This document shows positions 13,219 through 25,675 of a DNA stretch of 64,000 bases, piece after piece. Under the pieces are notes generated by a model, which saw nothing but the letters and a program-made list of their open reading frames with translations, was not told the origin of the DNA and made no database searches. Location: positions 1,550,001-1,614,000 of the forward strand of contig NZ_CP117811.1 of the NCBI RefSeq assembly GCF_028728065.1, in the 5' to 3' direction. This DNA is from Lentisphaera profundi. Lineage in GTDB: Bacteria > Verrucomicrobiota > Lentisphaeria > Lentisphaerales > Lentisphaeraceae. Made by a program: the position numbers and the translations under genes. The stretch's first letter is position 1. Each line of letters begins with the position of its first letter.

Positions 13219-13880
13219 GTCGATTAATTCGAGAATGTAAGAATGCATTGAAACAGAATATGAAGCCTGGCTTAGTCTTACAAGCCTTTGCTTTGATTTT
13301 AGTTTTCTCTTATTATAATTCTCTTAGTGTACAAGAGAGCTTAGTGAGTTTAACTGAGCTCAAAGAACAAAACCGCTATCTATTTTCAGGTCTCTCAACC
13401 ACTTTAGCAGCTGGCATCATTCCTTATCTCATTCTTAGCTTGAGCAAACGAGTGAAATTCAATTTTAATGTCTTGCTCTTTATGATGGTGTTTTGGTTTT
13501 GGAAAGGAACCGAAATTGAATATTTTTACTCGCTACAAGCGGAACTTTTTAATACCGGAAGCGATATCAGTATTATTATCAAAAAAGTCTTATTCGACCA
13601 ATTTGTCTTTAGTGCGCTCTACGCAGTTCCCTGTATCGTCATTGTCTATGTATGGAAAGATGCCAACTTTTCTTTTAGGCATTGGAAAGCAGGGCTCAAT
13701 AATGAACTCTTTAAAGTGAGGATCCCCACGGTACTCGTCTCTAATTGGCTTGTTTGGATTCCTGCATGCTCAGTTATTTATTCGATGCCGACACCCTTAC
13801 AAGTTCCCATATCCAATATCATTGCTTGCTTTTATGTCTTGATGATTGAAGTGCTGTGTAAGCCTAAAACGGAAGGCTAG
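13215..13880 (+). CDS. Small integral membrane protein, weakly Mpv17/PMP22-like
   Basis: A 221-residue protein with about four hydrophobic segments (near residues 20-32, 55-75, 85-95 and 130-150, plus a C-terminal pair). The C-terminal part, FDQFVFSALYAVP followed by NWLVWIPACSVIYSMPTPLQ and a closing helix, resembles the order of conserved points in the eukaryotic Mpv17/PMP22 family (DQ, W..W.P, P..L). This is a weak pattern match, not a confident assignment. It is translationally coupled to yigZ through an ATGA overlap and ends 4 bp inside the convergent transposase gene. Confidence 0.75.
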   Translation: MSRLIRECKNALKQNMKPGLVLQAFALILVFSYYNSLSVQESLVSLTELKEQNRYLFSGLSTTLAAGIIPYLILSLSKRVKFNFNVLLFMMVFWFWKGTEIEYFYSLQAELFNTGSDISIIIKKVLFDQFVFSALYAVPCIVIVYVWKDANFSFRHWKAGLNNELFKVRIPTVLVSNWLVWIPACSVIYSMPTPLQVPISNIIACFYVLMIEVLCKPKTEG

Positions 13881-14569
13881 TTTTTGTTGTGATTGATGTA
13901 AGTCCATAACCATTCTTTGCTATCTTTCACCAAGTTAGCTTTCACAGGGTTTTGCACAATGTAGCTGATCACTGAGCAGAAATGTCTTTCATCTCTAATG
14001 AACCGATCCCAGTAATCCTCCATCCATATTTTCTTGGGGAGTTCTAGTGACTTTCCAATACTAGTTTCAACTTTTTCATTCCCTGGGCTCGCGGGCGGCT
14101 CGCCCGCATTTCTATCCAAAAACTTTATGATCTTATGAGCGGTAAAACTCTTCCATGAATGTATTACATCTTTTAAAGTATAATTTGCATAAGTCTTAAT
14201 CAATAAGTGGACGTGATTCGGCATAATTACATAAGCAATTAAATCATAACGTTCACCATCGAAATGAAACCAGTTTTCTACAACTAACTGAGCCACTTCG
14301 GGTATCTCTAAATAGCAGGCTCCATAGCCTTGATCTAAATATTTTTCGACAAGTTTACGTTTTTTAATTTCGTCTATTGACGAAGAATCAGGAATAGGGC
14401 TAAGCTTATTTGCGGGCGAGCCGCCCGCGAACCCAGCTAAAACATCTTTTGGCAGAGAATCAGCTAAGCGATAAGTAATCATTTGATACTTATTAGCTTG
14501 GTCATAGTGAGGTAAATATCCACGATTATGCCAAGCTTCATCATTCTCAAATTCCATTCGTCGGTTCAT
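13877..14569 (-). CDS. REP-associated tyrosine transposase (RAYT) with two REP-like inserts in its ORF
   Basis: Y1-type HUH endonuclease of the IS200-like RAYT group, which process REP palindromes. The family start ITYRLADSLPKDVL, the metal-binding HUH motif MPNHVHLLI (about residues 116-124), HSWKSFTAHKI, and the tyrosine region DYWDRFIRDERHF with VQNPVKANLV are all present. The length is 230 residues against about 200 in the family. The extra length comes from two short inserts at loops, GFAGGSPAN (about residues 46-54) and NAGEPPASPG (about residues 154-163), each encoded by a GC-rich palindrome. The ORF remains open, so it may be functional. It does not look like a complete insertion sequence: no flanking terminal repeats were seen. 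Confidence 0.88.
   Translation of the reverse strand: MNRRMEFENDEAWHNRGYLPHYDQANKYQMITYRLADSLPKDVLAGFAGGSPANKLSPIPDSSSIDEIKKRKLVEKYLDQGYGACYLEIPEVAQLVVENWFHFDGERYDLIAYVIMPNHVHLLIKTYANYTLKDVIHSWKSFTAHKIIKFLDRNAGEPPASPGNEKVETSIGKSLELPKKIWMEDYWDRFIRDERHFCSVISYIVQNPVKANLVKDSKEWLWTYINHNKN
14083..14108. repeat. REP-like palindrome inside the RAYT gene, copy 1
   Basis: Core GCGGGCGGCTCGCCCGC (14091-14107) is a perfect 7-bp stem with a 3-nt loop, preceded by CTGGGCTC. The 26-nt unit is the reverse complement of the unit at 14411-14436 with one mismatch. The GC content is far above the surroundings. Confidence 0.85.
14411..14436. repeat. REP-like palindrome inside the RAYT gene, copy 2
   Basis: Core GCGGGCGAGCCGCCCGC (14412-14428), the inverted partner of the unit at 14083-14108. 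Both keep the coding frame open. Related cores occur in the tandem array at 25426-25675. Confidence 0.85.
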
Positions 14570-25425: not shown

Positions 25426-25675
25426 GCAGGCGTCTCGCCTTGCTGAAAGATCGGCACAAAGTTCCTGCAGATAATCCTGGGAGCACGGGCGTCTCGCCTG
25501 CTTTTTAGACCGTTTTCTGGGCTCACTGAAAGATCGGCACAAAGTTCCTGCAGATAACCCTGGGAGCACGGGCGTCTCGCCTGCTTTTTAGACCGTTTTC
25601 TGGGCTCGCTGAAAGATCGGCACAAAGTTCCTGTAGATAACCCTGGGAGCGCGGGCGTCTCGCCTGCTTTTTGTC
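25426..25675. repeat. 83-bp tandem array carrying REP-like cores
   Basis: Units start at 25443, 25526 and 25609 (CTGAAAGATCGGCACAAAG), a period of 83 bp, nearly identical. REP cores (GGGCGTCTCGCCTGC or close) occur at 25428, 25487, 25570 and 25653. The last unit reads GGGAGCGCGGGCGTCTCGCC, which resembles the palindromes inside the RAYT gene. The array carries no RNA or protein gene: the short ORFs across it change with the repeat phase. Confidence 0.9.

Follow-up and report, generated by a model that had tools for sequence, protein, structure and literature searches.

The closest described systems are the RAYT/TnpAREP systems with their REPtrons (Nunvar 2010, PMC2817692; PMC6006769; PMC8266576), in which an HUH-Tyr enzyme occurs together with hairpins that have a short unpaired head and are present in many copies per genome. 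These features are shared by the locus analysed here. In a REPtron, however, the REPs lie beside the gene or run into its ends, whereas the RAYT of the window, by which we mean the whole stretch of 64,000 nucleotides from Lentisphaera profundi, holds them inside the gene and has no flanking copy of its REP. The head of the window REP family, CTGGGANC, likewise differs from the GT[AG]G head of the RAYT/TnpAREP systems. REPs inside genes are also on record: the main text of PMC3733652 (2013) describes GTAG/CGTC REPs that lie within ORFs, encode peptides and were proposed to be located in loops, together with different recB REPs at about the same site and REPs that overlap the ends of RAYT genes. 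The Rickettsia palindromic elements (RPEs), as cited there, share with the present units their palindromic repeats and in-frame peptides. REPINs (Bertels and Rainey 2011, PMC3116915) are forward-reverse pairs, an arrangement that was found here in several loops at the second of two sites (B) and in both sites, A and B, taken jointly. The features of the locus are as follows.

13877..14569, minus strand: RAYT (REP-associated tyrosine transposase) of the RGYLPH...YWDR subfamily, open ORF of 230 aa
14411..14436, minus strand: internal REP unit at site A, CTGGGTTC head, forward on the coding strand, encoding AGFAGGSPA (codons 45-53)
14207..14215, minus strand: HUH motif His119-Val-His121, between both REP units, placed by alignment
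14083..14108, plus strand: internal REP unit at site B, CTGGGCTC head, reverse on the coding strand (forward on the plus strand), encoding NAGEPPASPG (codons 154-163)
13961..13963, minus strand: Tyr203, presumed to be catalytic (YIVQNPVKA; DYIYINPVKHG at the aligned place in 4er8)
25443..25672, no strand assigned: closest further members of this REP family, a tandem array of 3 units with an 83-bp period, about 11 kb from the gene

The ORF matched Pfam Y1_Tnp in a profile search (E=7e-7) and the NCBIfam model REP_Tyr_transpos NF047646 with E=2.8e-22 and 79.2 bits, just below the curated cut-off of 80. An AlphaFold2 model (mean pLDDT 82.7) gave as its best PDB fold match 4er8, TnpAREP bound to a REP hairpin (Foldseek, E=2.6e-7). 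The RAYT signature, an HUH motif and a downstream Tyr with Asn, is present as H119-V-H121 and Y203-I-V-Q-N207 in the alignment with RAYTs and 4er8, with the HUH and Tyr residues intact. The identification of the gene as a RAYT, made in an earlier note, is thus confirmed by domain, family and fold matches.

The two internal units form the sole inverted repeat found in the gene region, 26 nt long and complementary at 25 of 26 positions. Each consists of a 7-bp stem and a 3-nt loop, GCGGGCG-GCT-CGCCCGC on the forward strand of the unit, and the hairpin computed for single-stranded DNA has a folding energy of about -10 kcal/mol. A search of the 5.46-Mb genome (two contigs of 2.8 and 2.6 Mb) with the 17-nt core, allowing ≤2 mismatches, returned 52 matches and none with the reversed pattern as control; a search of the window gave 7 hits, where 0.02 were expected. 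The typical genomic unit reads CTGGGANC-GCGGGCG-TCT-CGCCCGC, and the internal copies differ from it by a less common loop, GCT, and by slight changes in the head. As is characteristic of REPs (palindromes of 20-40 nt, many copies, mostly extragenic), nearly all of the 52 copies lie outside convincing genes. The GT[AG]G tetranucleotide was absent from the hairpin foot, and the recurrent head of the genomic copies places them in a GGGA-headed class. Internal units aside, the copy nearest to the window RAYT (≤3 mismatches) is about 11 kb away, in the array listed above. This array comprises 2.8 copies with 97% match and one REP unit per period, and it lies just downstream of an ORF end. The same REP was also seen in tandem near the start of contig C1 (C1:1897-2282, 32-bp period) and at C1:1848415-1848647 (54-bp period) beside a RAYT pseudogene. 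The earlier note had proposed a genome search for other in-frame copies; among 53 copies examined, this yielded, besides the 2 in the window RAYT, 2 in the RAYT pseudogene at C1:1847820 and 1 in a 2003-aa ORF, and the remaining genic-looking copies, in short ORFs that span REP arrays, are apparently spurious. Judged from sequence, both units are genuine copies of the host genome's REP, in frame within its own RAYT gene, and the claim of two in-frame REP palindromes therefore stands. So does the placement of the inserts in loops. In the model the site A unit lies in low-confidence coil after helix 41-47 and the site B unit in low-confidence coil between the long helix 132-154 and strand 182-190; both loops are variable in length in other RAYTs generally.

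Two RAYT paralogues of the same genome have the same design with different palindromes. One (L064) encodes LGAPHSNAD twice at site A and SALECGAPS at site B; the other (L059) encodes AGSADLQS at A, with a frame break, and RADCKSELPA at B. In the pseudogene (L065, C1:1847820-1848315), the internal REPs are of the same family as in the window gene. It lies inside a REP array, keeps both internal units and has apparently lost the stretch from unit A to the end of the HUH region. Two further paralogues, at C1:184998 and C2:575871, carry no REP in loops A or B; they lie amid other repeat families, and their open frames read YAKHQLGKSPAP.. and GTPSTCLAFANTLQN...

For the wider survey, RAYTs were collected from 80 loci of a genome-contig search, from five relatives of the same family and from a phylum-wide search, which gave 191 non-identical RAYT ORFs, 146 of them complete, from at least five phyla. 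The searches started from the window gene and its paralogues, and the percentages hold for the sample so obtained. Site A was taken as the interval between DSLP and G.G.C, site B as that between SWKS.T and W..EYWD, and a unit was counted if a second copy occurred in the locus or an inverted match inside the gene. Copy-supported units at these sites were present in 43 of the 146 complete RAYTs, about a third. Site B was occupied in 42 and site A in 10 (one spurious match removed); 9 RAYTs were occupied at both and 103 at neither. Expressed as density, there were 42 matches in 9.1 kb at B and 11, including the spurious one, in 15.4 kb at A, while the catalytic core was almost free of units, with matches in 0 (core0), 4 (core1) and 2 (core2) genes over 57 kb. 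Of these six, two (L105, L119) are paralogue matches, two (L111, L251) are forward units in a third loop and the rest look like chance. In L111 and L251 the RAYT domain is part of an ORF of >1000 codons, with the forward unit placed after the HUH strand and before the helix that follows it (PGTAGVSPASFS). Hosts in the survey include, by record title, Lentisphaerota, Kiritimatiellota, Opitutaceae, Chlorobiota, Gammaproteobacteria, Desulfogranum and Chloroflexota. The stems vary by lineage, with about 12 or more types at B, and reading frames 0, 1 and 2 are all used there; most RAYTs occupied at both sites have one stem in common to A and B, and five or six B loops hold forward-reverse, REPIN-like pairs. 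No internal REP of this kind was seen in those of 26 further RAYTs inspected that are of the short FFDH-like type, although two had AT-rich hairpin matches near the end, and no convincing one in neighbour genes of at least 200 aa (30 loci, 104 kb). Convincing genic copies are nearly all within RAYT genes. In four loci (L087, L096, L104, L160) the RAYT ORF continues, with no intervening stop codon, as a long further protein sequence that includes motifs like DPPYNT or DPPYYDN; REP-encoded peptides lie near the junction, and these may be REP-linked gene fusions. One RAYT, from a relative in the same genus (L164), is identical to that of Lentisphaera marina (L099) over the stretch shown.

When the units were oriented by their GGGA head, site B units were reverse on the coding strand by 41 to 7, and in 40 of 41 genes the unit nearest to the YWDR strand had this orientation. 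Forward units at B are mostly members of forward-reverse pairs. Site A units were forward by 7 to 1. REPs in the flanks (≤600 bp on either side) were unbiased, with 150 forward and 125 reverse (Fisher p=2e-7 for B against flanks, a value that is indicative only, as the counts include related sequences). The same orientation was found at B for about a dozen distinct stems in all frames. Orientation as a by-product of the flanks is ruled out by their lack of bias, and an effect of stop codons by the consensus unit of the host genome, none of whose six frames contains a stop. The fixed orientation is not accounted for by the coding frame and probably reflects a constraint at the DNA level, for example a strand-specific choice of target or a REPIN-like arrangement with the heads outward. 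TnpAREP acts on the REP strand and leaves the complement alone (PMC8266576); with such a preference, the active strand would coincide with the coding strand at site A and with the template strand at site B. Together, A and B form a REPIN-type arrangement with the HUH-coding stretch in between.

The internal DNA also varies with the surrounding REPs. In 18 of 20 cases from the GCNGAG family, the flanks of the gene contained exactly its internal variant (expectation from shuffling 7.7; none of 5000 shuffles reached this number). L157 and L150 show a compensated change in the two arms of the stem (GCGGAG...CTCCGC), which turns the usual Gly into Arg. Clade I RAYTs were then classified only by the presence of the cognate REP in the flanks. 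Where it was present, codons were identical at 82% of same-residue positions of the unit, as against 41% of those of the core; where it was absent, the values were 32% and 39%, and the excess was gone. In one loop of L150, a cognate unit stands apart from a degenerate one (AAT GTT GAG TTG GGG TTG GGG ATT CCT; NVELGLGIP). The median length of loop B is 21 residues where a unit is present and 14 where there is none; clade I RAYTs that lack the palindrome stay at about 20-22. The median of loop A is 33 residues in either case, so at this site the unit replaces sequence rather than merely adding to it. As for an empty-site orthologue, none was found: two congeners had no match to the window RAYT beside the SulP gene in the fetched flanks. 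In the sequences compared, the DNA, beyond the peptide alone, varies with the REP family present at the locus, and loci without that family have a degenerate palindrome.

We attribute these patterns, with a probability of roughly 60%, to REPs that enter their own RAYT gene again and again at two loops that tolerate them, stay homogenised while the family is active and then decay to ordinary peptide. REP insertion, RAYT-mediated or linked to replication, would often hit the RAYT gene because the enzyme gene and its substrates are neighbours, and the insertions that survive selection would be those in frame in loops A and B, rarely in the third loop after the HUH strand. In an active family the units would be refreshed by re-insertion or by conversion from genomic REPs; once the family is dead they would degenerate into a plain protein loop. 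The clade I unit, at an identical nucleotide position in several phyla, looks like ancient inheritance with homogenisation and less like repeated fresh insertion. The opposite course, in which some REP families were born from RAYT coding sequence, the clade I B-loop motif N..LGL.IP having drifted into a perfect hairpin, later copied by the enzyme, appears improbable. The motif does occur throughout clade I, also without a palindrome, but loop B has 20-21 aa in this clade against 14 in most others, as expected after insertion of one unit; moreover, unrelated stems in other frames occupy the same place in other lineages, and in L150 a degenerate and a cognate unit lie side by side. An ordinary protein loop with an accidental palindrome would fit the low-confidence coil and the generally variable lengths of A and B, yet it is hardly credible in view of about 52 copies of the same DNA, which refute it for the host genome, the synonymous conservation, and the combination of one kind of head with stems that vary among lineages. 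The earlier note had taken distant orthologues that share the peptide but have no palindromic DNA as the mark of such a loop; this was seen in one clade only, in which lineages that lack the REP in their flanks have a degenerate palindrome.

Recurrent insertion as preferred here has the weakness that purely neutral insertion does not predict a fixed orientation. That the internal REPs are instead selected in cis, the RAYT binding hairpins of its own gene or transcript (autoregulation) or specificity and seed repeat travelling together, would accommodate the near-fixed orientation across all frames beside unbiased flanks, the shared stem of A and B, and the DNA-level conservation with tracking of the cognate REP. 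It would also suit the window, where the internal units are the sole copies of the family within about 11 kb. However, about 70% of the subfamily sampled has no detectable internal units, nor do the other RAYT groups sampled, and we regard selection in cis as rather unlikely. Its broadest form may be put forward tentatively: the whole RAYT subfamily could keep cognate REPs as a functional element that flanks the HUH-coding core on both sides with a fixed orientation, for self-recognition, autoregulation or as a seed that links specificity on transfer, renewed when the REP family changes. The earlier proposal of an enzyme invaded by REPs and tolerant of them accordingly holds for REP units in loops, but a single accident does not describe 43 occupied genes of 146 with near-fixed orientation and local REP tracking, and tolerated invasion is only part of the story.

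It has long been asked how REPs and RAYTs co-evolve and whether REPs are really mobilised by RAYTs. The internal units are a physical record, in the enzyme gene, of the REP with which it is paired, with apparent fossils of earlier pairings in L150 and clade I, so that sequence could reveal which REP and RAYT are partners; the orientation rule lends itself to a direct test. Compared with REPINs (PMC3116915), the spacer between A and B is about 300 nt of coding sequence. The likeness to the Rickettsia elements drawn in the earlier note extends to the in-frame palindromic peptides but not to the targets, since RPEs, as cited in PMC3733652, are spread over many genes with no tie to their own transposase, whereas nearly all convincing units here are in RAYTs. 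The intragenic REPs of PMC3733652 lie in unrelated genes, with stress on DNA repair genes, and its main text does not describe a RAYT with an internal unit, a fixed orientation or tracking. Nor did we find the pattern in the main texts of the open-access papers searched, and a prior mention elsewhere is possible. Intragenic REPs as such are thus already known, and the new part, as far as the open literature shows, is their RAYT-specific, orientation-fixed pattern.
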